DNA of 64,000 nucleotides from Amanita rubescens. Its lineage: Eukaryota; Basidiomycota; Agaricomycetes; Agaricales; Amanitaceae. Of this stretch, positions 5,051-40,025 are shown piece by piece (positions within the stretch are counted from its first letter, which is position 1; each line of letters starts with the position of its first letter). The position numbers were made by a program, and so were the translations under genes. The stretch is from the NCBI GenBank assembly GCA_015039365.1, contig WION01000227.1, positions 22,754-86,753 of the forward strand, read 5' to 3'. The notes below the pieces were generated by a model. It saw only the letters and a program-made list of their open reading frames with translations. It ran no database searches and was not told the origin of the DNA.

Positions 5051-5890
5051 CGATCCGGCGATGGCGGTTGACTGTGTCATCGGTTTCTGGCCTGAATTTC
5101 TGGGGGCCCAGAGAGAGGAACGCCTCAGCCCAACTGTAGAATGGACTTGCAGCGGGTTGAAGTATCCCCGTTCGAAAACGAGAGCCTTATTGACTGTGCC
5201 GCAGGTCAACGAACCACATCGAATGATAGGGCATTCCGGACGGCGGACGCGTGTATGCCGTATTGTTTGCCATATATACGGTGGGTTCCACAAACCCGTG
5301 CAAAACTGGGCAGCTGGGCAACAGCGTGCGACATCGGGCGGAGGGACCCAAGGGGGCGGTAGAAAGACGGGGGAGCAAGAGAGGTAGTAGCAGAAGCTGT
5401 CGCAACACGTGGCAGAAAATTATAAATAGTCTGAAAACAGAGGCGCTGATCGATCTCGGCAACTCGCCGATCGTGAAAAGACGCGCCCCATCCCGACACG
5501 TCTTCTCATTCTTCTCTTCGCTCCTCCATCTTGTCATCGCTAGCCTCTACGCTTTCTCGTCCTCTTTTTCTCACCCATCCCCCTCTCCCTATAGGTCTGG
5601 GCAGAAAGCCCGTGCCGCTGCGCTTATCCTCCCGTTGGCACGGGTCCGTCCATGTCCGGCCCGACTTCTGAGCCGTTTTGGGCCTTTCCGCTTTCGGGCA
5701 TTTCCCTCCACCTCGGAGCTTCCCCAAACGGAAATGCCACGTGAACGCGCACGGCCCCGGCTCTTCAAACCAAAGCAAATGAATAAACATTGAACTTTGG
5801 AAAAGGAAAAACACACAACTCAAATAGCGAGAGATTTACCTATATAATATCAAGCTTCTTTCACTGTCAATCGAGAAAACCTACAAGGGA
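5051..5890. other. No supported gene
   Basis: Long frames exist on both strands here (for example 5251-5793 plus), but they overlap each other, are rich in Arg/Ser/Pro from GC-rich text, and show no domain. I treat them as chance frames between two retroelement remnants. Confidence 0.5.
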
Positions 5891-7020
5891 TGGTTCTCGT
5901 TATGACGCGCGGCAGATAAGGTTATATGACGGGATCACGTAAGAACCAGAAGAACGGAAAACAACCTGTGTAAGCGAAATGACTGTAAGTCAAGGAAGTC
6001 CAAATAGTACAACGTAGAAGTAATGAACGAATCGGATGCGCGTGTATACGGATGCGGTATCTTGCCCGGGATCATGAGCACGAGGCGGTTCAGGTAGGGT
6101 CACAGAAGAGCACCTCCAGTGTATTTCGTTTGTACGACGGTAACACGGGCAGAGTCTCGGTATCGACAATCGAGATGTCTGGCAGTCTCCTCCTCAAGCT
6201 ATCGATTTGCCCGCGAGACAACTCGTTGGCGACTTCATTCTCTCTTTGACTCGAATCAACCACAACTTGAATCGCAAATAAATCATTGATAAGGATATCA
6301 ACGGCCGAGAGGAGGACCGGATTGCGATCAGGAACGGACGTCTCTACCGTTTTCAAATTGTCGGTGTAGATCAGGATACGATCTTTGAGATTACGCCTGT
6401 GAGAAATGTGGATAGCCCAGCACACGGATAGTGCTTTGAGGAAGGGGCTGTCCCATTGGGCGGTGAGGCCGCTCGGAAGCCGGTAGAAGCCTCTTTGTAG
6501 TAGCAACCCAGGCCTCTCCGCGATGCATCACAGAAGAAACGGTGGTTTGCCTGGGTCGGCGTCCACGCGATGGGCTTGATGATGTGAACGCCTTTCAGCT
6601 TCACTGCATGGGCAGCGAACCAAGAAAGCTCGAATTTGATGGCGGCGTCCACATCCACCTCTTCGTCTAGTTTCTTTTGGGAATTGCCGCGTGGAGCGTC
6701 CGCAACCCTGGCTTAAGCATAGGAAAGGCAGATAATGACCTTGCAGCGTCTGGCGACGGAGCAAAAGTGTCGAATCATCGAAAGCAGTTTATCGAGCTTT
6801 TCCTGGGGTAAAGTGATTGTCATGGCATTGGGATCCACTAGAAAACCGAGAATTTCGAGGGTTTCGCCGGAGACCTGCTTCCTCTCATCGTGAGGGATTC
6901 CTAATTCTTTCCATAGTTTGAGCAATCGAGCCTGCTTCGTCGGTAACCTTTTCTTATAAGACGGATAGTACTCCTCTGACGAGGCTAGTTCAAAAGAAAA
7001 GCAGTTGTCGGTGCACAGCT
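5891..7020 (-). mobile_element. Truncated DIRS-like retroelement copy B (RNase H and thumb region)
   Basis: Closely similar to the 3' half of the element at 26111-28400, including its 3' flank (GGATAAGGTTA motif, the phrase AGTCCAAATAGTACAACGTAG). The minus-strand text carries the RNase H-like stretch (IYTDN) and the region after the polymerase active site, in three frames because of small deletions. Similarity stops sharply near 7020, inside the codons just before the LYTDD active site, where a sphingomyelinase gene fragment begins. The copy is non-functional and 5'-truncated. Confidence 0.85.
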
Positions 7021-7639
7021 GGATCTAGAAGCAAATCTGACAGATGCAAGACCTTGACTCGCTTTCCGCTGGCTCTGACGCTCTCTGGCTTTGGCTTCGG
7101 GAAGAGGTTGCTGGTGTCGAGTGGGCTCGTGACCCGCTCCGGGCAGAAGCTGCCGAAGGCATGACAGATATATTGATCCAAGCCTTGCACGTCAGCAAAA
7201 TAGAGTACGATTTTCAAAATAGTTCCAAAGTTGGTAGCGTTGAAGCTCTCTTCGCAAGACGTATTGGAAGCGAACTGGGCAGATGTGCATGGGGAAACCA
7301 TGGTCTCCGGAACCAACGACGGGGCCAACTGAGCGGCCTGTTGAGCTGCAACCAAAGCATTTTGATACCGGGTGCAGGTGCTAGAACCATCATTTGCCCC
7401 GAGCACCTTGGTCACGTTCGCGGTGCCTTCTTGAATCACGGCTTGGGCCTGCCGTTGAGTCAAATGCTCCCTGGGTTCGGGGTAGTAAATCGGATCGTGG
7501 TTCCCACCAGTCGGAATCGTATTGGGATCCGTCAGGTCGGCTGTATCCAATCGTTATTAAATATCGTATACCATGGGCGACAATACTTACGTGAAAGCGC
7601 TAGTAGGAAAGCCAGCTGGAGCCACAGCTGCGTGCCCAT
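7021..7639 (-). pseudogene. 5' fragment of an acid sphingomyelinase gene
   Basis: ATG at 7637-7639 starts a typical signal peptide (MGTQLWLQLAFLLALS). A 50-nt intron lies at 7541-7590, followed by a single frame to about 7021. The protein text matches the N-terminal half of secreted fungal acid sphingomyelin phosphodiesterases: a cysteine-containing saposin-like region (CTSAQFASNTSCEESFN), then PLDTSNLFPKPKP and the start of the metallophosphatase domain, KVLHLSD. In intact enzymes the next residues carry the D-x-H metal ligand pair. Here they read SDLLLD, so the histidine is gone, and the gene ends three residues later at the edge of retroelement copy B. The rest of the catalytic domain is absent, so only a secreted stub could be made. 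Confidence 0.85.
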
Positions 7640-7953: not shown

Positions 7954-10680
7954 CATCGCGTCAGATAGGTGGGGAGAAAAATGACAACACGCGTGGTGCA
8001 GGTGTCGAGGTGACGTGACCGTGACTCGGACGGCGCGCCAGTCGTTCGGGCCTGGAAGATTGAAGGACTCGATTCTCAGTACCAGTCCTGATAGTCGTTG
8101 TGTCTGGCTGCGGTAGGTGTTGAACTCGTTACTAAGGGGAGGGAGAGAGAGTAAGGGGAGAACTTACCTGTTTCCCCGGTATATCTCGTACCATCGTGCT
8201 ACCCACTGCAACCACCCGTCGCCCACACGTTCGCAGGCGCCCATGAGCCCACGTACAGTTGTTGATTAAGACGAGGGCTGCTTTGTCTTTGGCCAGAAAG
8301 CGCGTAACACAGTGGATACTTGGTCAGCGCTTCAGCCTTCGATGAGAGAAACATTACATACCCGATACTAATCACAATCATCTATAAATGGCCATATTCT
8401 CTTGACGATGGTCCAAGTGTGAGAGCTTCGCAGACTCGAGTTGAGAAACCACCCGTGCACGTGAACCTTCCTTTTGCAGGCGGTTGCTCGGTTGCTACGG
8501 GCGTTTGCCTTGAAACCGGCGATTTGTAGGCCGTACATAGATTGTAAATCGAGTCTGGTAGCCTAGCTTCGATTAGCCCCGGGCTACGCAGCGAAAGATG
8601 AAAAGGGAGACACCTGTAACCTACTAGGCTGCCCTCACACGACCGCGTTGCCCTTCTCTTGTTTCTCCCGGATTATTGCTGTGGAAGAAGGCGGTCGCGT
8701 CCATATCAAGGGCGATAGCTTTGCCATGGAATTCCTGAAAATACGAGAAACCGGAGTAGACTGTGAAAGGTGCACCCCGTTTTGGACAGCCGCAAGCGCA
8801 CCGGTTTGTGTCCTTAGTTCACGTAACCTAGACTATCATATTATATAAGCTGTATTTGTATTCGTAACATCCCTCATGTGATCTCAATCTCCCTCAGGAA
8901 TCCATCGTTGGAGATATTACCTTCCGTGCTTACAGCTTCGATAGGCGCGTTTTTTTGCGTAAAAGCTACTCTTGGAACACACGTAGCCTCAAAACAAAAT
9001 CAAAAGTTTTTCCTCTGCATTCACCGACAATGACAACGAGAACTACAAAACCATCGACAGCGACCTTCGCGCCATGCCCGAGAACCTGGCCAAGGAACTA
9101 GAGACAGCAACCAATCGCCGCAAGTCGCGCTACCAGACACACAACGTCGTGGCCCAATCCGACGTAGGTTCTTCCACTAACGACCTAGGTAATAAATGGG
9201 GCCACGACGGCGACGATCCTAAAAATCCGAGACAGAAGCCCAGTGGACAGGCGCGACGGGAGCCGGTACACAACTCCGGCCCGTTGAATCGACACATCGC
9301 CGACTTTTACTGCCACTGGGACTTAGGCGAGGAAGGAGAGAATCGTAGAGTGGACTGGACGGCCAGGATGATGCGTTTCTCGTGGCGTCGTTGAGTAGCC
9401 GGACCCCAGGTGTTCTTGAGCACAGTTGTAACGCAGGTGGTATCGGGGAAAGTGGTGCATGAGGAAATGTGGTTGGTGAAGTGGCGGCGACGAAGAGACG
9501 GGACACGGTGATTAGCGTGTTCTCGTCCCACACATAACCCACGCTGCGCGTTTTAGGTCATCTAGCAGCGCGGAGAGGCATAGTTGAGATGCGTGATGGT
9601 GATAATTCGTGTGCTGGTGTAGAAGTATCTGGTTGTAACTCGGTGTAACGTTACAATGACATGCATGTGGACAGTTGGGAAGGTATCTTGAGGCGCAGAG
9701 CTAGCTGTTGCTTGTCACGAGGAAAGGAGCCACGAGAGACAAGGCGCCAGCTAAATTGATCCAAGCAGAAATCCAGTCCATAGATAGCCAAATCTCGCGC
9801 TCCTGTATCATAGGTACTATCCGGCGGAGTACGGCGATTGGAGGAGCGTCGCGGCTGTTCGCTTTTTGAGTTTCCAGGTAAATCAGCGATCAAGCATTCA
9901 CGTAGATGGTAACCGGGGGAGACGTCCATTCTACAATGAGGTTCTTCAAGCTTCGTGGTGTGGGAGGGAATAGGCTGCGTCGAACCTGAGTGCGCTCTCA
10001 GAGAGTCGTCGATATCCAGGATGTATGTAGTACAGACACTGGGAGAACGTCAACGGGAGTTTCTTGGAGTCGGTTAGTGTGTTAACAGAATGGGCCGGGA
10101 GGTAAAAGGGGATGAACGATGCGGGGAAAGGGTAAGGCGACTGCAAGTCAACGCATGGCGTGGAGCGTGGGTAGGAGTGGTCTAAGGTAACGCGTAGTTT
10201 CACCGGTGAAACATTCACGTATTGGATGATATCCAGAGGCGCGTGTTTGGGTCAAGTGGCAAGTACCAGGGGCGTTTGGGGGCGGGGCGGGATGCCAACA
10301 CGAGGAGGGAGGGAGCAGCAGCTGGATAAGGTCAGCCGGAGGATGTAGGCAGAGGGCTGCATCAGCAAGGGCCACAAGAAGTGGTAGAAAAGCGTCTTGG
10401 GCAGGGAACAGTCGAAGGGTGATTCCACACAAGGCAGGAGCAGTCAGAAGGGCGGTGCATACCGTGCTACTAGGCAAAAAGCCCCTGAGCCTGTCACAGG
10501 ATCATCTTTGATAGGAAAAGTCAAGGCTTGACATTGCCCGGTTGTCCCAGGCCTGCCAGCGAGGGACCTAGTTCCAAGAGGATGGAAAGCCGATGATGTG
10601 CGCCGCAGTGCGCGGCAACCCTACAATGACGTTTGCGAATGTATTCTGCCACATCCGGTCACATATGTCACACCCTCCTT
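7954..10680. other. No supported gene
   Basis: I see no assignable gene. A frame around 9020-9200 on the plus strand (containing NYKTIDSDLRAMPENLAKELE) reads like a fragment of real coding sequence and ends near a possible donor at 9189, but I cannot extend or identify it. Frames at 9219-9542 and 9946-10477 minus are overlapping and featureless. Confidence 0.4.
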
Positions 10681-10974
10681 ATGTAGGCCATAGTTTGGTC
10701 AAATTTAAGCTAGCCGATGTGTGAAATTTAAGCACTTGATTAAATTGCCTAAATAACTTGCTTCGCCACAAACTGTGATTGAGCTGTGCAAACCCCACAT
10801 GTGCCTTGTGAACTGTCCCAGATCTCTGCCCCTGGCGCAGTGCGAAGTTGAATGATGTGCTTGTTACCGACACTTCCACCTAGTGTCTTAATTGGTCATT
10901 TGACTTGGAAATTGTATGACTCACTTGGCCTGAGAGCTCGTCGCGACTCGCCCTTCATTGTATAAGTTGTTCTA

Positions 10975-12782
10975 ATGCCTCGCACACCGAAAAAGTCCAC
11001 CACTGCCACTGTTCCTTACACAACTCCCTCACCATCACCAAAGAAGAGTCGTAGTCGCAAGTCACAAGGGACTTCTATTCAGGTTGAGCCCATACCTGCT
11101 CCCTCGGTTGCACAGCTTCTGGATCAGAGCCGAGAGACCACAGATGAGTGGTACAAGTCCAAGAGGACCAAGAATGGTTATGCTAACTATGTGAAGCATG
11201 GTAAACAGTGGCTGGGCGATTGGGCGATTGAGGACCGAACTGATTCGGACGACTCCGAATTGGTGACTTCGGAGGACCGAACAGGCAACGACCCAGAAGA
11301 AGGAAGTACCAGGGTACACCTTGCCCAAGCCTTCAATACCATCAGTGATCACACCCCTGTTGCTCTGAGGCTGCTCACTGCCTATAAATGTGAGCACCAG
11401 GGTTGCACCTTTGCGACAGCTGAGGGCTTGCGATCAGCCTTTAAGGACTATTTTGAGAGGTGAGCCTCAGCCTTTCACTTGCTTCCATCCCCCACATTGT
11501 TTTCTCTGCTGGACAGGGTTCTTGGGTGTCAAGGTGATGTTTGGCGATATAATTCTCATACAAAGGCCTGGGAAGGGAATCCAGTCTTCCAGTCCGACTT
11601 CAAGACTTATTATGAGTCACTGAAGAATCGGGATAACAGGACAGGGACTGTAACTCAGGCCCTTCCAATGTTCCCAAAAGATTTGAAGGTCATTATGGAC
11701 TATCTGGATGGGAAAGATGGTAGCGATAATGTTTCAGTCACTCGGCGACTATACTTCAAGGCCTTCGCTACAACAGCTTTTGCACTTTGGACAAGGTTAG
11801 CTTGCTTCGAGTTTTCGCTAGCTTAATTGACCTAATATACACCCAGGAATGAAGAACTCATCAACCTCCAATTCGGTAATGTTAAGCTATGCCAGCAATC
11901 GGCCACTGGGAGACTCTACCATGAATTCCAGCTTGTTTTTCGAAAAACTAATAAGGACCCAAACAAAGGTACCAGTGCCTTTGACATGTGCGAAGTGATA
12001 TCCAATCTCACATGATGGAACTTCGCCAGCCCAGACCTATTTCATCCCTCAAAGTACATCTGAGCCCGAAATCGACTGTTATACCCATCTGCTCAATTGG
12101 GTATCATACCAGCAGGGCCTCATCGCTCGGTCCTTGGGAGTGGGTGATCTTGTCTTCCCAGCCATCGCTTCAACAGGGCAAATCAAGTTTGGTGTACCAA
12201 CAAGCCGATCAGGCTTTGAGACCATCATGGATGACATCGTTAAGAAATCAGGTGTGATGCAGGGAAGAAATGGGAAATTCACAACTCATTGTTTTCGGCG
12301 AGGTGGGGCTCAGTATCGCTTCATGTATGCTCCAAAGAAATGGAGCTTGAAGGCTGTCAAATGGTGGGGGGGTTGGTCATCAGGCGATAATGTAAACCTT
12401 TGCCATCCTCTGCCTGATCGATTAGTACTCAATAATGCGACAGGTAAACACCATCATGCGATACCTCCTCGAAGAATTGACTGCATATGAAGAAGGCTTT
12501 AGTGACATCATGATGGACGACAGAGCCTCTGAGCGACATGAGTCCTTCATGGGTGTACCAGACCCTTCAGCGACACCTACAAAGAAAGACCTCTTTACCT
12601 TTGGTGAGGGCATCATTCAGAAATTTGAGGGCCTCTTCCATGTATATGCCAGTACTCCGATACTACCAAGGCATTCGCCAAGTCCCCTGGGTGTGACTCC
12701 TGTCATAGCAACACAACAGCCTCCAACTCGTATGTTTCTGAGTCGTCTACCACCACATTATACCCAGCTCAACACAGCCTAA
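10975..12782 (+). CDS. Crypton-type tyrosine recombinase
   Basis: Cuts and rejoins DNA through a covalent tyrosine link, and is probably the mobility enzyme of the surrounding element. Five exons: 10975-11459, 11517-11795, 11847-11968, 12030-12391 and 12444-12782. All introns are 50-61 nt GT-AG and frame is kept, giving 528 residues. The catalytic set is visible: R255 in TRNEELINL, a lysine candidate in VFRKTNK, H382-x-x-R385 in THCFRRGG, W411 in GGWSS, and the nucleophile Y423 in NTIMRY. The N-terminus is basic, Ser/Thr-rich and disordered; residues 50-240 fit the SAM-like core-binding region. The frame stops at TAA 12780-12782, but coding text continues in the same frame to 13208 (next entry), so the protein has probably lost its C-terminal domain. 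All catalytic residues lie before the stop, so activity may remain. Confidence 0.85.
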
Positions 12783-13208
12783 CCAGCGATATCAACCAGT
12801 TGTCATGTGCCTGGACAGTCGGATGATGAGGGCGAGGTACTCGCAACAGTCTTGTCGGCACCTGTTGAACACTCGCCTCGGCCATCTCGCATACCCCGAA
12901 CTACATCTCTTGACGATGTGCTGGCATACTGGGAAAATGGGGCTCCTGATAAGGGGCTGGTGGTACCATTGAAGCAATGGGCTGATTTGTTTGACCCATC
13001 AGACTATCAGTCGGAGGCAGTGAAATTGAGTAACATTCGATTCATTTGGGAGGAGTTTGCGATTGAGTGCCAATGTGACTTTAACCTGTTTGAGGCCAAG
13101 TTCCCAGGCATGCGACACCAGTACACCAAATTACTCAAGGCAGTCAGGGAGGCAAGAAAAGAGAGGGGGGAAGCCAAAAGTCGGAATCGGACGAGTCACA
13201 AACAATAG
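12783..13208 (+). pseudogene. Severed C-terminal domain of the recombinase
   Basis: In the same frame as the last recombinase exon, immediately after the TAA at 12780-12782, an open frame runs to a stop at 13206-13208. It contains DDVLAYWENGAPDKG, then SNIRFIWEEFAIE, then a basic tail. Cryptons often end in a GCR1_C-like DNA-binding domain, and the WENG/IRFIWEEF spacing resembles that, though I cannot test it. The simplest reading is a CAA-to-TAA change in a once longer protein. A short intron removing the stop is possible, but I see no good donor before it. Confidence 0.6.
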
Positions 13209-13299
13209 TTAGCTTAAATCATTTATTACTAGTATGTTACAACATGTTGTTATTAAACATGTCAACAGAACTTGTCTTGTGTTGGCACATGTCGCAACT

Positions 13300-13530
13300 T
13301 GTCCTTATTGTACATATGCTAGGAAAGTGCCTTGTTTGCACACATTCCACCGGAAAGTGTAATTTCCTTACACATGTCACCTTATGTCATTCATGCACAC
13401 ATTCGATTAGAAAGTGTAATTTCCTTGCACATGTCACCTTATGTCATCCATGCACACATTCGATGAGAAAGTGTAATTTCCTTACACATGTCACCTTATG
13501 TCATTCATGCACACATGCAAGAAAGTTCCT
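13300..13530. repeat. 57-bp tandem repeat between convergent genes
   Basis: About three copies of a 57-bp unit containing GAAAGTGTAATTTCCTT, ACATGTCACCTTATGTCA and TGCACACATTCGAT. It lies between the 3' ends of the recombinase (+) and dioxygenase (-) genes. The ACATGT and AAGTGT words recur in the other arrays of the element. Confidence 0.85.
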
Positions 13531-13832
13531 TGTTTGAACATGTCACAAACCTATCTTAAATCTACATGTAATATGTGATTGACTATGTCAGTTCCTGGGT
13601 TGCTATGTTACATAGTTAGTCAAGATTTAAGGCTAAATTTAAGTAATTTAGGCATGTGTTACAACCAGACACTTGCCATGACATGAGTGATTCAGACATT
13701 TGTTAAAAAGAAACACTTCCATCGATCTGCATCACATTCATCCCAGGACTTGAAACCACACACTACTAGCTGCTAATAAGACCTGTTTATGGCTAGAGCG
13801 ATATACATGGCAAAATGTAGTAATCCGAATTA

Positions 13833-15482
13833 TCAAGCCTCATCCTCGTCATCATCCCAGTTGTATTCAATTTCAGCTTCATCATCCCCTTCCTGAATAA
13901 CTTCCCACACCCTACTCTCATCGATAATCCCCTTCAAACAATCATCCCAAGCCTTCTGTAATCGGTTAGGAGTGACAAAGGCTAGACCAGCTTGGTGGAA
14001 ATAATTTGGGTCATCATCATTGTTGACAAAGCTAGGGTCAACCTTCTGAAGACCTGTGCCATGGGCATCGCGATTTCTCCAGGCAATGATGGTATTTGCA
14101 GCTGGTGCAACTTGGATACCATACTGAGCAAGGTAGAAGCAACCACCATACTCTTGACCTTTGTTCCGAGAGGTAGTCCATGAGATTGCATAATCATGGG
14201 GCTGCGACTCGCGATGTATAGCCCTGTCAATTTCATGTCTTCATCATTTGTTCAAAAAAGGTTAGGGGGCAATTACCACTCACCTTGCATAATTGCGAGC
14301 CATAACACCAGCTGGAGGGGCAAGGTGGACATCAGAGAATGTAAAGGGAATGCCATTAACTATAAGATTATATGACCCCTTGTGACTACCCAGTTGGCGA
14401 GTTGCATTCATGGCAGGTAGCCCACTTTTGGTGATCCACCGATCAATGTCAACAATGATTTGAGGAGGGAGCCAACCACGACAAAGGTTCCAGAAGAAAG
14501 CGAAGGCCGAACATGTCCTCTGGTCAAGGTCGCGCGCGTCAGTCTTAGTGGAACGAACATTTCGGACCCAGTTGAATGAAGGCTTGCTCCGAGACCCTGC
14601 AGAATAACCGATCTGGACCAGCGATCCAGGGTCCTCTAACTAAATTTGGTTAGAAAAAAGGTACAGCCTAAAGCTAATCAGCTTACTCACCCTGATCGAC
14701 TTCTTAAGCTTTGTTGCATCAGTTACTGTTGCATCAACCCACAGCACAGCCCCTTTGTCCCTGCAGGCATTGCGCATGACAACCAGAACAATCTCCTTCG
14801 TCTTCTTGTCCTTAACAATGATATTGGTGTCAGGGTCAACATAAAGGGTGATCTTGGCAGGGTCAAGCTGATGGAAGGGGTGTCGCTTCAAGCGAGGATC
14901 AGGCTGATCTCGGTTGTAGATGTAATCGAACCAGAGATCCCCAATATCCTTAGATTCGACAACCCAATGGTCTGATAAATTTTATTTCATTTAATTGCAA
15001 TTTAATTGCAGGCAATAATACTACGACTCACTCTTTGGAGGATAAGGGATCTTGAGTTTTGGGAGTTCAACAACCTTGATGCCCTCAAGGTGCAAATCCC
15101 GAGTGTATTGTTGCTTTTCTGCCTTCCAGTTGAGGCCAAGCTCAACAACAAGATGCTTGTGGGCCATATCGAGGTCATCCTTTTCCTTGCGACGATGCTC
15201 CCATGCAGCCATTATTCCATCCTCGAGAACAGGCATCTTATCGCGATTGCGATTACAGAAGGAGCCAAAGGCTCCAAGAAGATTGTGGTTGTTGGTCATG
15301 TCGGGAGGGGCACCAAAACTTTTTAGGTGAAATCGGAGATAGTCAGATGCAGCAGCAATGTTGTCATCTCGGACAGCAGATCTAATGAGATAGAGAAGCC
15401 TGGGATCGGTAGATAGGTTCGATGCAAGCATGGCCCAATAGTCGGCTTGCTTTGTTGGTTTACTATTGCTAGTGGTCGACAT
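13833..15482 (-). CDS. TET/JBP-like 2-oxoglutarate/Fe(II) dioxygenase
   Basis: Probably a nuclear enzyme of the family that oxidises methylated bases in DNA. Four exons: 15482-15032, 14971-14691, 14639-14284 and 14223-13833. Introns are about 50-60 nt and frame is kept, giving 492 residues. The last exon carries the core: IHRESQPHDYAISW (residues 365-378), then YGGCFYLAQYG, then WRNRDAHGTGL with H417. This fits an H-x-D/E...H iron site in a double-stranded beta-helix, except that the acidic ligand reads E368 rather than the usual Asp. The C-terminus is very acidic. The upstream part has a conserved-looking VDIDRWITKSG segment of unknown role. In Agaricomycetes such genes are known beside DNA transposons; here the neighbour is a tyrosine recombinase in convergent orientation. 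The family call rests on motif spacing and would need a profile search. Confidence 0.65.
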
Positions 15483-15779
15483 GATGCTAGAGGATGACAG
15501 TAGTAGTGGAGTAGTAGTGTGGAGGCAGCCTGACTCGCGTAGCTGTGGCCAAGATGGATGGCGATATCGGTTTCTTCTCCAAAAATAACTCAGACATATC
15601 TGCTACTGCACAATTCTTGCCCTAAGGTCAAAGGTGTTCACGCTACTCGTCACCGTCACTGTGGACGTCATCCTGTGAACAACTCCCACCTCCTCACTTC
15701 GTGTCACACCACGCGCCTCCAACCTGCACTGCACCACCAACATGCGCCGCATCACCAACCTTTCCCCATGCCACGTTAT

Positions 15780-17980
15780 CGAGTGTTCTTGGCACCAGCC
15801 ACTGAAATGTACCACAACGGTACGTTTTCCTTTCGTCTTTTCTTTCGTTTTTTAATCATTATCGTTTCATGCCATACCAACACCCTTCACCAGCGAGCCC
15901 ATGCCACCAACCCTGCCCGACCTCATCAACACATACCTCACCACCAACTTGAAGTTCTCCCTTTGCCACGTCATCAAACATCCCAAGCACTGGCTGTGGG
16001 AATGTACCTCAACGGTACGTTTCTCTTTTTTTCTTTTCCATCGTTTTCTCATCGTTCGCAGCTCGTATCACACCACCCTTCACCAACTTGCCCTGCGACA
16101 TCGACCCTTCCCTGCACCACCAACGGACACAAGCCTATGCCACCAACCCTGCCCGACCTCACCAACGTACGCCGCCCAACTTCCCCCCATGCCACGTCAT
16201 CAAACTTCCCCAGGGATTGGCCGCAGGGGTGTACCTCGGCGGTATGTTTTTCTTTTCTCTTTTCAATCGGTTTCTCATCATTCGCAGCTCGTACTGCGCC
16301 ACCACCCTTCGCCAACATGCCCCGCGACACCAACCCTCCCCTGCACCACCAACGGACACAAGCCCATGCCAACAACCCTGCCCGACCTCACCAACGTACG
16401 CTGCCCAACTTCCGCCCATGCCACGTCATCCAACGAATGCCTACGCCGAATGTACCACAACTGCATCACCACCCCTCACCGATGCGCGCTGTGCCACCAG
16501 CCCTTTCTCGCACCACCTCATCAAGGTATGTCGCCCATACATTTCTTTTTTTCTAACTAATGACCCTCAACCCAGCTCCTGTACTCGTCGCACCGCGCGA
16601 CTCTCATTTCCATGCTACCACGCAGCGACCTCTGCCACTTCAATGTCGAATGACAGTTGGAATCGCCGATGTCGTCGATGGATTTATGTGGCAAATTGGT
16701 ATGTTGCCCGAACTTTCTTTTCTTTTCTTTTAACTAATGGCCCTGCCCCCACATTCGCTGCACACTTTGCGATTCCCAGACCTGTGCGACAACCTCCACC
16801 ACAATTAAAAGGTATGTCGCTCGTCCCTTTGTTTTTCCCTTTAACTAACGACCCATTCGCTACGTCGCCATGCGACTCCCACACCTGCGCACTCCCACAC
16901 CTGTGCAGCAACCATCGTCAGGCATCGCAAGGTACGTCGCCTGTCCCTTTATTTTTCCTTTTTGGCTAACTAACGATCCTGCCCCTCGCTTCCACACCCG
17001 CGCAGTAACCTCCACCATCGCAACGGCAGGCACCAAAGGTATGTCGCCCGTCCCTTTATTTTTCCTTTTGTCTAACTAATGACTCTGCCCCACAACCCTG
17101 CATTCGGCGCACCGACTCGCCGCGCCTCCACGCGATCCTTCTTCATGCCTCCCCTGCACGACTTCTTCCACGTGCCAATGCCATGTCAACTGTCCCCGCG
17201 GTCGCATCGGCACCGAAGGTATGATGCCCATACCTTCGCTTTCTTTTCTTTCTTTCTAACTAACAACCCTCAACCCAGCTCCTGCATTCGCTATGCCTCT
17301 GCGACTCTCGCATCTGCACATCAACCCCCACCATCACCTCTGCTCTTTCAATCGCATGCAGCAACGGCTCTCGTCACTTGTCAGTTGGTATGTTGCCCGA
17401 ACTTTCTTTTCTTTTCCTTTAACTAATGGCCCTGCCCCCACATTTGCTGCACACTTTGTGATTCCCAGGCCTGCAAGACAACATCCACAACAATTTTGGC
17501 ATTAAAAGGTATGTCGCTCGCCCTTTGTTTTTCCCTTCAACTAATGACCCTGCCCTGCGACCCTGCCTTGCATTCGCTGCGTCGCCATGCGACTCCTGCA
17601 CCCGCGCAGCAACCTCCGCACCTCAATGATGGGCACTATTGCCCATCCTTTTGTTTTTTCTCTTTGCCTGCCCCTGCATTCGCTGAGCCACTATGCGGCT
17701 CCCACACCCGCACAGCAACCATCGTCAGGCACGGCAAGGTACGTCGCCTGTCCCTTTGTTGCTCCTTTTGGTTTAACTAACGATGACCCTACCACTACAT
17801 CTGGTGTGTGGCTCCCATGCCTCTCTGCTACTGCAATGTCGCACCCATGGTGCGGCTGTTTGTTTCCCAACTAATCCCGCGCCTGCGCAGCAACTCCCAC
17901 CACCTCAATATCGAAGGGTATGCCGCCCATACCTTGTTTTCCCTTGTTTTCCCAACTAATGACACACCCTTGCACTCGTT
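15780..17980 (+). repeat. Array of about 13 intron-like units
   Basis: A GGTATGT or GGTACGT donor-like word recurs near 15820, 16015, 16242, 16526, 16699, 16812, 16932, 17039, 17219, 17388, 17519, 17739 and 17918. Most are followed by a T-rich run and a perfect branch-site word (TTAACTAAT, CTAACTAAC or CTAACTAAT), and several by CCCAG or GCGCAG. Examples that read as complete minimal introns are 16015-16061, 16242-16287, 16526-16575 and 17219-17278. The text between units is C-rich and repetitive (CCACCAACCCTGCCCGACCTC). Long frames such as 15558-16556 run through it but give His/Pro-rich text ignoring the splice signals, so I do not call a protein. Confidence 0.7.
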
Positions 17981-18015
17981 GCGACATTTTCAGTAGTGTT
18001 TTGTCGATCTAACTG

Positions 18016-18210
18016 TGCTTAGCGAGTAACGACCCTCGCGAGAAGGCTGATAACACTGAGGAGAGTCCTGTTGCTTAGGCCTTGTTATTTCATCTCCCCA
18101 TCGCAGTGTCACTTCGCCAATCTAGAGTGTTTAGCGAGTAATGACCTTCGTGTGAAGGCTGCTAACACTGGGGAGATTCCTGTTGCTTAGGCCTTGTTAT
18201 TTCATCTCCC
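18016..18210. repeat. Two-copy direct repeat, 112-bp period
   Basis: Copies at about 18016-18098 and 18128-18210 share TTAGCGAGTAA(C/T)GACC, AAGGCTG(A/C)TAACACTG and TGTTGCTTAGGCCTTGTTA. They lie between the intron-like array and the 90-bp repeat. Confidence 0.85.
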
Positions 18211-18450
18211 ACAATCCATTGCCCACTGTCGCTACCCTTTTCCCGCATTTACCTGCAGTGATGCTCCTTTTTGTATTTCTTTTCCTTTTCTCCCTACTTG
18301 CCAGCCCACCACATCCCTCCTTCGGTAAAGGATGCCAGAGCTTCGCTACTACCTCGTTCTGGTTGCCGAGCGACTAGGGTAGCAAAGCCAGTGCTCCAAA
18401 GCCAAAGCGAGTGGATTTTTCTTGTTTCTGCAGCCGCATCTTCATTTTTA

Positions 18451-19510
18451 ATGCATAACATGTGCAAGCCTAACATACCAGTCGCGGAAGTGCCTGTATG
18501 GGACATGTTACAAGTCCATATGTGTAAATGCAACACTTCCTTCCACAACATGTGCAAGCCTAACATGCCAGTTATGGAAATGTTCAGATTTGACATTTCA
18601 TAAGTATATGTGTATAAATGCAACACTTCCTTCTACAACATGTGCAAGCCTAACATGCCAGTTATGGAAATGTTCGGATTTGACATTTCATAAGTATATG
18701 TGTATAAATGCAACACTTCCTTCCACAACATGTGCAAGTCTAACATGCCAGTTATGGAAATGTTCAGATTTGACATTTCATAAGTGTATGTGTATAAATG
18801 CAACACTTCCTTCCACAACATGTGCAAGCCTAACATGCCAATTATGGAAATGTTCAGATGTGACATTTCATAAGTATATGTGTATAATGCAACACTACTT
18901 ATGTATAATGCAACACTTCTTGGCACAACATGTGCAAGTCTAACCAGAACAACTAGGGTAGCAAGTGGGTAGGCCATCTTCCACTATGCGATGTTACATG
19001 TGTATAAATAAAACACTTTAATACATAACATGTGCAAGCCTAACATACCAGTTGTGGAAGTGCCTAGATGAGACATGATACAAGTCCATATGTGTAAATG
19101 CAACACTCCCTTCCACAACATGTGCAAGTCTAACATGCCAGTTATGGAAATGTTCAGATTTGACATTTCATAAGTATATGTGTATAAATGCAACACTTCT
19201 TGGCACAACATGTGCAAGCCTAACATGCCAGTTATGGAAATGTTCAGATTTGACATTTCATAAGTATATGTGTATAAATGCAACACTTCCTTCCACAACA
19301 TGTGCAAGCCTAACATCCCAATTATGGAAATGTTCAGATGTGACATTTCATAAGTATATGTGTATAAATGCAACACTTCTTGGCACAACATGTGCAAGTC
19401 TAACATGCCAATTATGGAAATGTTCAGATGTGACATTTCATGGGTATATGTGTATAAATGCAACACTTCCTGGCACAACATGTTCAAGTCCAACATGCCA
19501 TATACAGAAG
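18451..19510. repeat. 90-bp tandem repeat in two blocks
   Basis: Two blocks (about 18451-18940 and 19020-19510), together roughly eleven units of 90 bp, separated by about 70 bp of unrelated text. Each unit contains CAACATGTGCAAGCCTAACA, GGAAATGTTCAGATTTGACA and TGTATAAATGCAACACTTCC. Because 90 is divisible by three, reading frames stay open on both strands for hundreds of bases. Those frames are a by-product of periodicity, not evidence of a protein. The array ends about 70 bp before the stop of the minus-strand gene 19582-22557. Confidence 0.9.
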
Positions 19511-19581
19511 TGTGCCAAAAAGACATTGCACGAGCAAAGCAAATCTTATTCAAAATTATACAACTTAACAAGGCAGGAAAA

Positions 19582-22557
19582 TCATACTTGTCCTTTAACA
19601 TAAGTCTTGAATGCAGCAAGCACCTTTTCCATCTCCTCCTGGTGTGCAGGATTTTCCATGATCATCATGTCCGACAAGCGACTCAATGCCCATATTGCAG
19701 TATGTTCAAGGCGAGCCTTCTCAGTTTGAAGAAGTGACCTGACTGTGTGCCCTGAGACTGCTGCGATACCACCTTCGATGAACCTAAGGGTGGTCGGGTT
19801 GAATGCATTCTCTCTCTTTATTTTTCCATCTCCAGCTTGTCGCAGAGGGGTATCGGGGTTCTTTGCATTGATCTTCGTAAGCCAAAGCTCAAGGGCTGCA
19901 GTCTCAACTGGGCATTCGCACCCACTGAGGTAGTCGCCACCCTTGTCGATCTTGCCCTTGCCACGAGCACCATCCTTGCAGGAGAGGCACTTCTCTGATC
20001 CAATCTGCAAGTGTAAATCAGTTACTGCACAAACCAGGCAAGCTCAGGCTTTAGTCCCACTTACATGGTTGTTAAAGAGAGGTTTGATGATTCCAATCCC
20101 TGCTTCGACACATCCTGGCCACTTATCTGGCTCATCCCTCGCTTCCTTGATCATCCTTGGAGTCATTTTGACTTTCTTTCCCTTCTCATAGTCCCATATT
20201 TTAATCTTAGGGCCTGAAATTGAAAGAATGAGCCGATTAAACAGCAAGGACAGTCGAATATCACACCTGAGCTCTTCCCAGTAGTAACTTCAATCTCAAC
20301 AGGTTCATCAATCAAGTCATGCACAACTAGCCACTCGTGGATCCTCCGAATCTCATCCATACCATCAGGTCGCTCATTGGCCATGGTTGGCCACCCGATG
20401 ATCGCTGCATTCAAGTTCAAACCTTTGCAAGCCTCCAAAATTGCCCTCTGGAGGTTGCTGCAGGCATTGAATAAAGGCTGGAAGGTTGCAGGAGGAGAAG
20501 TATAGGTGTGGCTGGTGAATTCATGTCGCTTCTCTGCCCAGGTTTTTCCCCAATCTCTGATGGTAAGGAAGGAAATCTTGCCAATGACTGCTTGCACTGG
20601 AAGGATGTTATTATGGAAGGTAACTAAGAGACCTACTAATGACTCACAGGCTCGCTTCGGGTCTTGATCAGGTGAGGGAGGTTCTTCATCCATGGGGTCA
20701 TCTGGAGTTGAAGAGCGAGTGTGAGCAAGAAGACAAGATCAAGGATGTGATCAAGTTGGACAGTCGCATCTGAAGTGTTGCACTAGCACACTTCATGGGA
20801 GCAATTGCTGAAATTGCCCATGTCCAGAATCAAATGTACAAGTTGCACAAGTTCCTGGATGTGTACTAAATATACTGTCACTGCCACAAGGTGTTGCAAT
20901 AGAACATGTTTAAGCACATGTGTGCAGAGTGAACACTTCCTCGCACAACATGTGCAAGTCCAACATGTCAGACGAAGTGTTCAGATAAGACATGGCATCG
21001 GCACATGCCACTGGTGTATAAATGAAACACCTCACTGCACAACATGTGCAGGTCCAACACTTTGATTGTGGGTGTGTGCAAACTGAACACTTCCATTGGA
21101 ACTAGGACTTGAAGGCTGGTTCTCACCTTGGTCATGGCTGCCATTGTGTTCATCCTCAGCTGTCCCTTCATTCCCCTGTGGGTTCCTTCGTTCTGGATCT
21201 GGGTGGCAGTGTACCAATCAGCATGACCATACTACTAGCCAGATAATAGATTGTATAAATGTAGTAGCACAGTAATAGCACTTCGCACAAATGTGTGCAA
21301 AGTTCAAGGAAGTGTCCAAAACAAACATGACATTTGTCAATGTGTATGAATGTGGCACTTCAGTGCATGATATGTGCAAGTCAAACACCCTAACAATGGA
21401 TGTGTGCACAAGTGACACTTTCCCACATGAGGTGTCCAAAACAAACATGACATTTGTCAATGTGTATGAATGTGGCACTTCAGTGCATGATATGTACAAG
21501 TCAAACACCCTAACAATGGATGTGTGCACAAGTGACACTTTCCCACATGAGGTGTGCAAAACAAACATGACATTTGTCAATGTGTATGAATGTGGCACTT
21601 CAGTGCATGATATGTGCAAGTCAAACACCCCAACAATGGATGTGTGCACAAGTGACACTTTCCCACATGAGGTGTGCAAAACAAACACTTCCCCTTGCAT
21701 TCAGAAGTGTATCTCACCTTCATTGCCATCATGGCTATTTCCTGTCCCTCCCCCTCCATTCCCCTCAGGTGGGTCTTGTTGTTCTGGATCTGGGTGATGT
21801 GTCAGTCAGCATGACCATATTACTAGCTAGGTTGTATAAATGTAACAGCATTTCAGCACAAATATTTGGAGTGTTCAAATCAGACATGACACTTGTTAAT
21901 GTGTATAAATGGGATGCCTCAGTACACAATGTGTGCAAAAGTAACACCTTCGGACTTCCCACATGAAGTGTGCAAGGTCAACATGTGAGGTTGGGAAGTG
22001 TCCAGATCGGACATGCCACTTGTTAAATGTTAATGTGTGTAAATGTGACACTTCGGTACACAATATGTGCAAAGATGACACCTTCCCACATGAGGTGTGC
22101 AAAACAAACACTTCCCACACTTCCAGAAATGTACCAGTGACTCAGGCTGTTCTCACCTCGGTTTTCGCTGTTGTCTGCAGGGTCTGGCTCTTCCATGTCC
22201 TGATCATCTTGATGAGCCATCATTGTCGCAACTGTGGGGGTGCAAGCATGAGATCAATCAAGCTTGTAGAGTTTCAGATCTTACTTTGATCGAGATATGC
22301 AGTGTAGGCTTGAAGGGCATTAGCAACTAGCCTCTGGTGGGCTGGACAAGCGATTATAGATCAGTGCCCCAAAAATAGATGACAGCTAGCTGTCATTTTG
22401 GAATACACTCACTTTCACCACCCAAGACACCTCGCTTATCCTTGGCAGTCCTTTTGTATTTGGCGAGGAACCGAGTAGCACCATTGAGGTGTTCAGCGAC
22501 ATTCTCAGGAGTGAGCTGCGAGAGAGGGATAGGGTTATAAAGAGGTTTAGGTGGCAT
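19582..22557 (-). CDS. Unknown element-borne protein with a C-x2-C...C-x-C motif and twin exons
   Basis: Eight exons: 22557-22413, 22326-22285, 22231-22157, 21789-21718, 21198-21127, 20701-20267, 20213-20065 and 20004-19582. They join in frame to 470 residues. I do not recognise the family. The N-terminal 60 residues look helical; residues 62-140 are acidic, Gly/Asn/Asp-rich and disordered; a folded region follows from RACESLVGLL. The last exon has CLSCKDG and, 19 residues on, CEC: a possible zinc site. Exons 4 and 5 are both exactly 72 nt, begin with the same ATCCAGAAC text and end in the same way (G|GTGAG), so one is a duplicate. Introns 3, 4 and 5 (367, 519 and 425 nt) are far longer than the 50-nt norm here and are filled with repeats. 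The acceptor of exon 2 is the least certain. It is probably an accessory gene of the mobile element. Confidence 0.65.
20890..21110. repeat. Degenerate repeat in intron 5
   Basis: Contains CACAACATGTGCAAGTCCAACATG and related words (ACACTTCC, GTGTATAAATG) that match the 90-bp array, in irregular spacing. It lies within the intron between exons 5 and 6 of the minus-strand gene. Confidence 0.7.
21306..21690. repeat. 120-bp tandem repeat in intron 4
   Basis: Three near-identical 120-bp units, each with AACAAACATGACATTTGTCA, GAATGTGGCACTTCAGTGCA and AAGTGACACTTTCCCACATG. They fill the intron between the twin 72-nt exons. As with the 90-bp array, the unit length is a multiple of three and frames stay open on both strands without implying a protein. 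Confidence 0.9.
21830..22125. repeat. Degenerate copies of the 120-bp repeat in intron 3
   Basis: About two diverged units with GACATGACACTTGTTAATGT, GTACACAATGTGTGCAAA and TTCCCACATGA. They lie inside the intron between exons 3 and 4 of the minus-strand gene. Confidence 0.75.
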
Positions 22558-22755
22558 GTTTCCACAGGCTGATGTGTAGGGAAGACACAATTAGCAATGC
22601 AATAGATGGGAAGCGGCAGTTGCACGACAATTGATCAGATGATCCAATTGCTTATGTTGTCTACCAGTGATGAAGAACAAACAAACTTTAACACATAAGG
22701 ATTGAATGCGGTGGAGCGCGACATGTGGTAGACATTAAACATGATGCATGATGCA

Positions 22756-22782
22756 GCAAGCTGCCGCGGCTGGGCAGCTTGC
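22756..22782. other. Perfect hairpin near the presumed right end of the element
   Basis: GCAAGCTGCC at 22756-22765 and its exact reverse complement at 22773-22782 enclose a 7-nt loop. It lies about 200 bp upstream of the minus-strand gene's start and just inside the inferred element edge. It may be structural, a protein site or chance. Confidence 0.6.
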
Positions 22783-22900
22783 GAGCGACATGTGCGAGCC
22801 CCACACGTCGCCAACGACCTGTCGCTGTCACACGGGTCACGCGCTTGTGCTTAAATCTGGCAGTTGGCCGCCCACTGTCGGGCCTTAAATCTGCATCACT

Positions 22901-24274
22901 ATGTCCATTGAACTCCACTCACGACTTCTCAATCTGGAAAAGCCATCGGGCCTCAGATCGGGGGGAAGCGTCTCGAGACGAAGAAGCACCCTCAAATGAC
23001 ATCCAGGTCCGAGATCTGGTACCTTGAATCCACCCCCTGTGTAACTGTAATACTAATAGTGACATGCCGTGGGTATCCTCATCAAAACGAATGCTGTTTC
23101 GTCGTTGATCAGAGTGCCTGTATGTTCGCCACCGACGTACATGGAGCAGAAACCCTCGAGCTGTTCGTATGTGCGTTGCAACACGCCGTCCGGCTTGCAC
23201 TGTTTTGTGTACTCCAGTTTCTGAAATGAGGCTCAGCGAATCGTTCCAGACGATGGAGCCACGGCAAGGTAGGGAGCGGTACTTACTACTTAATGACTAA
23301 GACAAAAGACACAGTAGTGTAACGTGGGACGAACTTGCATTCTTGTTCCAAACTCAAAAAGGATTAAGCTCGGCGACCGTGTCTAATTTTTGGATCCATC
23401 CCGTATGCAGCAATACTTTTTTATATCAAACTCGCATCATCTAAATGACAAGTTACAGCCGTCTGGACATGGTGATCTTTATGAAACTTGACGTAGTGTT
23501 GTGAGGTTTTCTAGAATCCGTCATACAAGCTTTCTGCGCACCTCCAAAAAATGTCAGAAATAGCCTTTTGATGCACAACGCAGTACTTTGAAGCATATGC
23601 CAATATCGCGACTCGTTTCAGGTTAGCCGAAACATCCCAAAGCCACTCTACCGTCGATCTTGGCATTTTCTCCGGACAAAGTTTGTTGACGGACCCAGAG
23701 TGAGTTGCGTATGTTATGGAGTCGCGTTACAGAATAAACCAGGTTGGTGAGACGTTGTGAGTCGAGATTGAAATTCGGCATCGCTATTCTGTGGTTTAGT
23801 ACCGCGCCGCCAATGTGCAGCGTCGGCGGAACGGATAATTTTGGCCTCGCGGTAATGTCGCCACTCATGATCACGAACAACGTCGGCAGTTTACGGAAGA
23901 TTCTATTCCCCGACTAGAGTGCCCTGTGCGTGCTCCATTCTTTTCCAGGCTCGCCAACCGTCTCTGGTGGTGGCAGTTCCCATTCGGGGATATGCGTTGG
24001 TAATGTCATTTATCAGGGTTTCCGAAATCCACTGTATTCTGTGTTATGGGACTTATGCTACTGCCCCTTCGCACGCCTACCACAGTACTTGTACAAAAGC
24101 CTGCCTTGCGGCAAATATCCTATCCTATCTGCTCTACGCTTATCCGTCCATAATAATTGTATGGGACGCGATATGGGTGACCCATGTGAATTCTGTATTG
24201 CAGGATTTTGCATCGTGCATCTTCGAATAAGCCCTGCCGCCGAAGCTATTTTTTCATCTTTTCCTACTCTGTCT
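22901..24274. other. No supported gene
   Basis: Short frames only. I see no domain, no clear splice chain and no repeats. A possible upstream exon of the C2H2 gene at 24275 cannot be excluded. Confidence 0.5.
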
Positions 24275-38990: not shown

Positions 38991-40025
38991 TTCTGATCGT
39001 GTTGAAAAATAAAGTAGGGAAAAGTGCGCCAGAGGCAAGGGCGGATCGTAGGAGAAGAACTTGTGAGGCACAGTGAATGAGGGTGAGAGTAACAATGTCT
39101 TACGCATATTGTCACTACTCTATTTGGCGTTGCGTAAGTTTCCGCGGTACTTGGGCATAGGGGCGTACAGCTCAAGCCTTAGAGCGGGATGTCGCCGGGG
39201 CGGCCGGCAAAAGTGGCAAGCGGCCGGAGCGGAAATGGCCGAATGCTTACTGTAGCCGCATTTGTCACCAGCCAGCGCCATGAATGCTTCTAGCTCTGGC
39301 GCTGGGGAAGGTGACTGGTGATTAATTGGAGTGCAGGCGAGCAAGCGGGGATGGATAGCGTTCAGAGCCATAGCGACGTACGCATATTGAAACGGGGGAA
39401 GAATGCTACTCAAAAGTTTAAGTAAAACATTTCAATGTGTTGTGGTGTCGGTTGCAACGAATTCAGAGTGCTTTTTCGTGGGTAAGCGTGTTTTCGATAG
39501 CAAGATCATACAACAGCGCAGTGCGAATAAGATCTTCGCTGGCGAAATATCACTCGCTGTCCGCGTACCCACCATCGAAATCACCATCGAAACCATCATC
39601 TAAACCATCATCTAAACCATCATCTAAACCATCATCTAAACCATCGTCCTCAGCATCCAAGTCTGCTTCCTCGTCTTCGTCATTAATTTCTGAATTACTT
39701 TCCTCGTCTGTCTCGTCATCATCAGTTTCTTCATCCGTGCTTTCAGTAGACCCTAGTCCTTCCGAAAGTCCCCCGACCCCGTCCAAATTTTCGTCATCTT
39801 CAACGTTCAAGTCCACATTGTCGCCGGGAAATCCGCCTTAAAGGAAATAATCGGTGACTTTTCGTTCAGATTTGTGAATAACGCCCACCACCTCGAAAGC
39901 TCATCACCACTCCAGTGTGGATGGGTCGCTGGAATATATAAGTGAAACATAATTTTAATGGCATCAATAAAAAAACGCGCACACTTGGTGGAATAAGCTA
40001 ACAGGCAATCGGAAACATTAGTAAA
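38991..40025. other. Spacer with duplicated fragment and acidic repeat frame
   Basis: About 39115-39400 resembles 47165-47370 (for example GAGCGGAAATGGCCGAA beside GAGCGGAAATTGCCGAA), so it belongs to the same segmental duplication. At 39597-39650 a 12-bp unit (ACCATCATCTAA) is repeated about five times. On the minus strand it falls in a coherent frame from about 39840 to 39550 that is extremely rich in Asp and Glu with GLDD repeats. That may be an exon of an acidic protein, but I see no gene around it. Confidence 0.4.

Follow-up and report, generated by a model that had tools for sequence, protein, structure and literature searches.

A probable Crypton-like tyrosine-recombinase transposon with a TET/JBP-like dioxygenase gene in Amanita rubescens

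Do a tyrosine-recombinase gene and a neighboring TET/JBP-like dioxygenase gene of Amanita rubescens (Agaricales) belong to one mobile element, and what might such an enzyme do for a transposon? The question is raised by a stretch of 64,000 nucleotides (the window) from contig C143 of a 75.7-Mb, 786-contig genome assembly. The initial annotation, made from the sequence of the window, had placed both genes in one candidate mobile unit together with a cysteine-motif gene and several repeat arrays. Here we compared the locus with its relatives elsewhere in the genome. It is probably a Crypton-like tyrosine-recombinase transposon, in which a PE-type TET/JBP-like dioxygenase and a third conserved gene are part of the same mobile unit (Table 1).

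A genome search with the DNA of the recombinase gene returned 11 places, the surroundings of which were fetched and compared. The copies on C770 and C26 are near-identical to the window across the whole element and have different flanks. A further copy (C621) has the same 5' end, is truncated by the start of its contig and covers only the first 9.3 kb. C148, C121 and C701 constitute a diverged subfamily with similar 5' flanks; they may represent a single insertion, the sequence around it being allelic or duplicated. When the genome was searched with a 3'-end pattern that allowed up to three mismatches, four places matched, on C143, C770, C26 and C148. These four copies have both ends, and their flanks are unrelated or non-homologous. 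Their joined flanks served as queries for empty sites, which were found for three of the four insertions: on C59 and C179 for the window insertion, on C19 for that of C26 and on C48 and C440 (94% identity) for that of C148. All five empty stretches consist of the left flank, a single TATGT and the right flank; occupied sites read left flank, TATGT...TATGT, right flank, except that C148 has TAAGT on its 3' side. The element sits at TATGT without further target duplication. The comparison of copies and empty sites fixed the ends at 10680 and 22904, a few bases from the 10681 and 22900 proposed before. The empty sites put them outside both the recombinase and the dioxygenase gene and not between the two, which bears out the shared unit. 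The same ends enclose three genes in both subfamilies, and element sizes are 12-20 kb. Conservation of the true ends between subfamilies is clear at the 3' end and weaker at the 5' end. Across the four window-type copies 32 sites vary (C621 included with its first 9.3 kb only; gaps uncounted), which points to recent transposition.

The C26 copy carries a 9.8-kb Helitron in its recombinase gene (L015, 1357-9042; Helitron_like_N and PIF1 domains, open reading frame of 2562 aa), and C509 has the same 5' junction. The C148 copy is longer (20.3 kb) and has a 1690-aa open frame at element positions 8236-13305 (first half L024:1-2553) which is absent from the window copy. Pfam gave no match in the scanned half of this frame, which may be other cargo or a nested element.

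Table 1. Coordinates of the element and of its features in the window.
Feature	Position	Strand	Remarks
Whole mobile element	10680-22904	+	TATGT at both ends; 12,225 bp; Amanita rubescens
5' end	10680-10739	+	TATGT, followed by ATTTAAG motifs at 10703 and 10726; 88% identity to C148 over 60 bases vs 74% over aligned bases of 10740-10974
Tyrosine recombinase gene, 651 aa, 6 exons	10975-11459, 11517-11795, 11847-11968, 12030-12391, 12444-12729, 12787-13208	+	identical to annotated A. rubescens P0024
Array of 57-bp units	13337-13516		
Internal block similar to a 3' end (13555-13576, ending TATGT) joined to a 5' end (from 13604, beginning TATGT)	13549-13632	+	89% identity to C148, gaps counted; neighbors 41-59%
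PE-type TET/JBP-like dioxygenase gene, 492 aa, 4 exons	15482-15032, 14971-14691, 14639-14284, 14223-13833	-	identical to annotated P0001
Series of intron-like units in which splice-donor-like words alternate with branch-site-like words	16241-17960	+	10 donor-like, 11 branch-like
Array of 90-bp units	18453-19500		90-bp array also in C148
Gene 3, 410 aa, CxxC...CxC region, 7 exons	22557-22413, 22341-22285, 22231-22157, 20701-20648, 20596-20267, 20213-20065, 20004-19582	-	identical to annotated P0020
Array of 120-bp units	21312-21687		inside third intron of gene 3
3' end	22850-22904	+	CTTAAAT (inverted ATTTAAG) at 22850 and 22884, ending TATGT; 98% identity to C148 over 22850-22899 vs 41-62% over 22700-22849

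The recombinase gene is intact in the window copy. It had been recognized as complete, with 528 aa; the length has to be corrected to that in Table 1. The dioxygenase was predicted at its annotated length, and the cysteine-motif gene is real. R, K, H, R, H/W and Y are the catalytic residues of tyrosine recombinases. In an alignment of 31 recombinase sequences, picked from the 120 matches listed, K288, H382, R385, W408 and Y423 are invariant and R255 is conserved in at least 90%, i.e. the protein has the catalytic residues of the Crypton superfamily. Pfam Phage_integrase matched the window recombinase at E 0.012, below the cut-off, and 10 of the 31 members at E<=0.05. In the 492-aa protein Pfam found nothing at E<=10. 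When its AlphaFold2 model (predicted local distance difference test score, pLDDT, 84) was compared with the PDB, TET/CMD1 enzymes occupied the top rows; a TET-type double-stranded beta-helix fold is therefore predicted. H366 and H417 are invariant among 15 dioxygenase sequences and E368 is present in at least 90%, so that the HxE motif corresponds to H366/E368 and the distal histidine to H417. According to the accessible part of Kojima (2025; PMC12730594) the HxE iron motif is the hallmark of PE-type TET/JBP enzymes. Profile searches of solved structures with the recombinase, TET and gene-3 profiles returned nothing useful.

The genes are linked beyond the window. In seven of the seven places which hold most of the recombinase a TET gene lies at a distance of 631-784 bp, and in C148 its frame is open. 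Among the other 18 grouped recombinase places, i.e. 5' fragments and distant relatives, none has a TET gene within 10 kb; the smallest distances are 12.4 kb, for a place that is itself the 5' part of the C26 copy, and 13.7 kb on C35. Gene 3 occurs on six contigs of the genome, every one of them element-bearing, and the seventh copy (C701) reaches the edge of its contig. Recombinase loci also exist in Mycena, Lentinula, Pleurotus and Plicaturopsis; in Mycena crocata a recombinase (P0040) and a relative of gene 3 (P0023) are each on a contig 376,212 bases long. At least 40 grouped TET places exist, seven beside this recombinase and seven others no more than 10 kb from Plavaka, two of the latter also within that distance of KDZ. 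Grouping was done by hand (103 TET matches into 40 places, 57 recombinase matches into 25), Plavaka (14) and KDZ (12) matches were taken from TET-bearing contigs only, and the counts carry no chance expectation. The TET-like family is common to different transposon types in this genome; in Agaricus bisporus, too, one TET family is shared among transposon types, as far as the accessible part of Kojima (2025; PMC12730594) goes. Between subfamilies the ratio of nonsynonymous to synonymous substitution rates (dN/dS) is 0.18 for the recombinase (exons 1-5, 495 codons), 0.21 for TET (492 codons) and 0.22 for gene 3 (last two exons, 189 codons), from which purifying selection on all three genes is deduced. 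For the recombinase, this ratio and the fourfold-site count below were taken from exons 1-5 of C701, since C148 is frame-disrupted; for gene 3 both come from its last two exons.

To which class does the element belong? It has terminal direct repeats (TATGT) but lacks terminal inverted ones; its empty sites are precise, and short inverted ATTTAAG motifs occur inside its ends. Pfam detected no reverse transcriptase or DDE transposase domain in the three genes or in 19 other open reading frames of the element, three of which gave only chance-level matches under the cut-off. A DIRS/Ngaro-type retrotransposon was rejected as no reverse transcriptase domain was present in the scanned frames, and a Starship because the captain domain DUF3435 (PF11917) had no match at E<=10 in the recombinase. 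A KDZ or Plavaka transposon was likewise rejected: the genome has at least 126 and 146 matches, respectively, none of them on C143. For CryptonF and CryptonS the accessible part of Kojima and Jurka (2011; PMC3212892) describes terminal direct repeats of 4-6 bp, no terminal inverted repeats and a circle model; many CryptonS end in TATGG, and some oomycete Cryptons carry a C48 peptidase, so that there is precedent for a Crypton with an additional gene. The A. rubescens element, which ends in TATGT, shares with Cryptons the short direct repeats and the tyrosine recombinase as the sole recognized mobility enzyme. Unlike the Cryptons in that portion of the paper, it is 12-20 kb in size, lacks a detected GCR1_C domain and contains the TET/JBP gene and gene 3.

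Could a recombinase transposon have landed beside an unrelated TET-bearing transposon? Such transposons are at hand, since Plavaka transposases are no more than 10 kb away from 7 of the 40 grouped TET places. However, the same ends enclose three genes in four copies, the empty sites are devoid of all of it, the diverged subfamily keeps the gene order and C143 has no KDZ or Plavaka match. On the strength of the copies and empty sites we rejected chance adjacency or nested insertion, which is highly improbable. Several other results weigh against a Crypton-like transposon with a TET-type enzyme. The joined-flank search gave no empty site for C770, and an empty site may equally reflect precise excision and not a never-used site. 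GCR1_C, the CryptonF domain, was not detected at E<=0.05 in any of the 31 recombinase members. For this reason the element is Crypton-like, not CryptonF, and the initial label 'complete Crypton-type' has to be qualified. Transfer by alignment yields disrupted recombinase frames for C148, C121 and C701, although for C121 an annotated 622-aa recombinase protein (P0025) exists. The identification as TET depends on a predicted model and on sequence identity of about 12%; the TM-scores from Foldseek are low (0.39 by query and 0.53 by target for the top match), and root-mean-square deviations in VIA are 3.7-4.5 A. As to the mechanism, the recombinase would join the two TATGT ends into a circle with the predicted junction CATCACTATGTAGGCCATAG, which then would recombine with a chromosomal TATGT; the recombinase would bind the ATTTAAG motifs, which face one another at the ends. 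The TET enzyme would oxidize 5-methylcytosine on the element and keep its genes expressed. That silencing escape by this oxidation is the main role of the enzyme has, in our view, slightly better than an even chance. The TET-like gene may instead be a passenger or have another role, i.e. base hypermodification, marking of the element's own DNA or steering of the recombinase by modifying or binding DNA; this is possible, though appreciably short of an even chance. According to the accessible part of Kojima (2025; PMC12730594) PE-type enzymes are far from the characterized ones, have HxE in place of HxD and could possess an activity other than that of TET. The dN/dS of 0.21 speaks against a pure passenger, and the conserved iron ligands argue against this alternative as well.

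Is the element methylated? The element has an observed/expected CpG ratio of 0.55, compared with 0.99 and 1.05 for the parts of the window on either side, and TpG/CpA is raised. Measured in 2-kb steps, the ratio falls where the element lies, apart from 16001-18000, where it is 1.0. Among the 32 variable sites of the copies 26 are transitions and 17 of these fall at CpG, whose share of positions is 6% (binomial P 4e-13; P 7e-10 when 17 of 26 is set against 12.8% of C/G bases, the change being unpolarized). Three matches to the DNA_methylase domain in the genome are candidate host C5-methyltransferases. These data are consistent with an element that is currently or was formerly a target of methylation. 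Two observations weigh against the overall interpretation: the part of the element at 15.5-18.3 kb of the window is not CpG-depleted (0.92), and the Helitron in C26, which has no TET gene, is more depleted (0.15). The surroundings of the 5' fragments on C13, C509 and C749 are at 0.13-0.36, also below the element. Because Helitron and 5'-fragment stretches are more depleted, CpG depletion characterizes repeats generally and has no bearing on whether the enzyme acts on the element.

The two subfamilies have not diverged evenly. The share of fourfold sites that differ is 34/208 for the recombinase, 73/151 for TET and 31/59 for gene 3, i.e. 16% in the recombinase half versus 48-53% in the cargo half (Fisher against the recombinase, P 7e-11 for TET and 7e-8 for gene 3; TET against gene 3, P 0.65). 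Introns follow suit with identities of 72-87% in the recombinase versus 47-69% in the cargo. Recombinase half and cargo half thus seem to differ in their history; they meet at an internal block which resembles joined element ends (Table 1). Its identity to C148 falls to 71% over 13545-13650, gaps counted, and the internal TATGT words span 13572-13608. Order and orientation of the half-motifs are those of a circle junction or of two tandem elements. The 5'-like match outscores 300 of 300 Markov sequences and is the best in the window apart from the true end; among 2,376 sampled windows of 150 bases from nine fetched loci only true 5' ends equal it. The pattern of divergence points to modular exchange. 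A recombinase-only unit and a cargo unit could have been joined in tandem at TATGT, the recombinase halves having been exchanged since. Tentatively, and at somewhat less than an even chance, we propose a modular transposon with its own anti-silencing enzyme, in which driver and cargo (TET and gene 3) were swapped at an internal attachment-like site; the recombinase may still recognize this site, which could permit separate recombination or mobilization. The main rival, to which we give nearly an even chance, is that the block is a conserved regulatory signal between converging genes, e.g. a shared terminator or enhancer, and that gene conversion or the local rate lowered the divergence of the recombinase. 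Indeed, the block is placed between the stop codons of the converging recombinase and TET genes (13208 and 13833), its seven genome matches are all within element copies, and the 3'-like match alone is unexceptional, being reached by 19 of 300 Markov sequences. Against this rival, both half-motifs are ordered and oriented as joined ends, the 5'-like match is equaled by true 5' ends only, and the low divergence includes the recombinase introns. On the other hand, modular exchange is disfavored by the genome searches, which revealed no free-standing recombinase or cargo half and located block, gene 3 and 3' end in element copies only.

How does this compare with known systems? The accessible part of Kojima (2025; PMC12730594) lists 11 TET-bearing transposon lineages with DDD/E transposases or Helitron HUH/Y1 enzymes, none with a tyrosine recombinase, and the words 'Crypton' and 'tyrosine recombinase' are absent from the text. 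The A. rubescens element resembles the fungal TET-bearing DNA transposons therein by its PE-type (HxE) TET/JBP dioxygenase and by its host order, Agaricales, and differs from the listed lineages in using a tyrosine recombinase; the partnership is a different association, as initially surmised. In the accessible part of a 2014 survey of Amanita transposons the library contains no Cryptons (PMC4122921). A literature search (titles and abstracts; open-licence papers) yielded no report of fungal TET/JBP together with a Crypton or a tyrosine recombinase. A 2014 paper, known here through Kojima 2025, reportedly deals with TET/JBP and KDZ in fungi. Within the literature searched, the element is one more TET-bearing lineage, and no earlier one uses a tyrosine recombinase. 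It adds a new mobility chemistry to the known association of transposons and TET/JBP, and suggests that TET/JBP capture is independent of mobility chemistry; since capture would not be tied to such chemistry, a function in silencing escape is favored over hitchhiking. Like Starships, as far as the accessible part of PMC12134995 describes them, the element has direct repeats and a tyrosine-recombinase gene first at the 5' end, facing inward with cargo behind; unlike these it is without DUF3435, resides in a basidiomycete and measures 12-20 kb. The same source asks whether a Starship captain can be swapped. The two-rate structure around an internal end-like site resembles this question and bears on how driver exchange and cargo gain come about in recombinase elements. 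The element would be a convenient test system, with near-identical copies, filled and empty sites in one assembly, a methylation-decay signature stopping at the ends and an intact enzyme gene.

Gene 3 had no Pfam or NCBIfam match, and its AlphaFold2 model from four sequences was poor (pLDDT 55, predicted TM-score 0.30). The arrays said to share ACATGT and AAGTGT are real and are not seen elsewhere in the window; the hexamers themselves do occur outside the element, 16 times each in 51.8 kb. Within the element ACATGT is present 33 times and AAGTGT 39 times (first-order Markov means, 6.9 and 9.4), and the 11-mer ACATGTGCAAG 13 times versus none in the remaining 51.8 kb. C148 has arrays at corresponding places, with 62-bp instead of 57-bp units after the recombinase and again 90-bp units further on. 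Thus, the two subfamilies have related units which differ in length and copy number. Persistence of the arrays across subfamilies fits a function, such as that of the cis-sites initially suggested, and mere descent alike. The best-conserved non-coding stretches are the 3' end and the internal block rather than the arrays.

The series of intron-like units looks as if a transcript had many tiny exons. In contrast to the remainder of the element it retains its CpG (about 0.92-1.0), and it has a counterpart in C148 (element positions 5607-7154) with 10 donor-like and 8 branch-like words. At 18020-18210, as judged by eye, two similar copies of about 80 bases stand side by side, starting AGCGAGTAAYGACC. 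The TET-like places within 10 kb of Plavaka transposases are on contigs C760, C651, C321, C640, C385, C741 and C65. Scans of the window for tRNA and Rfam families gave no match. Outside the element, at 39569-39645, the 12-bp tandem repeat CCATCATCTAAA is present in 6.4 copies.
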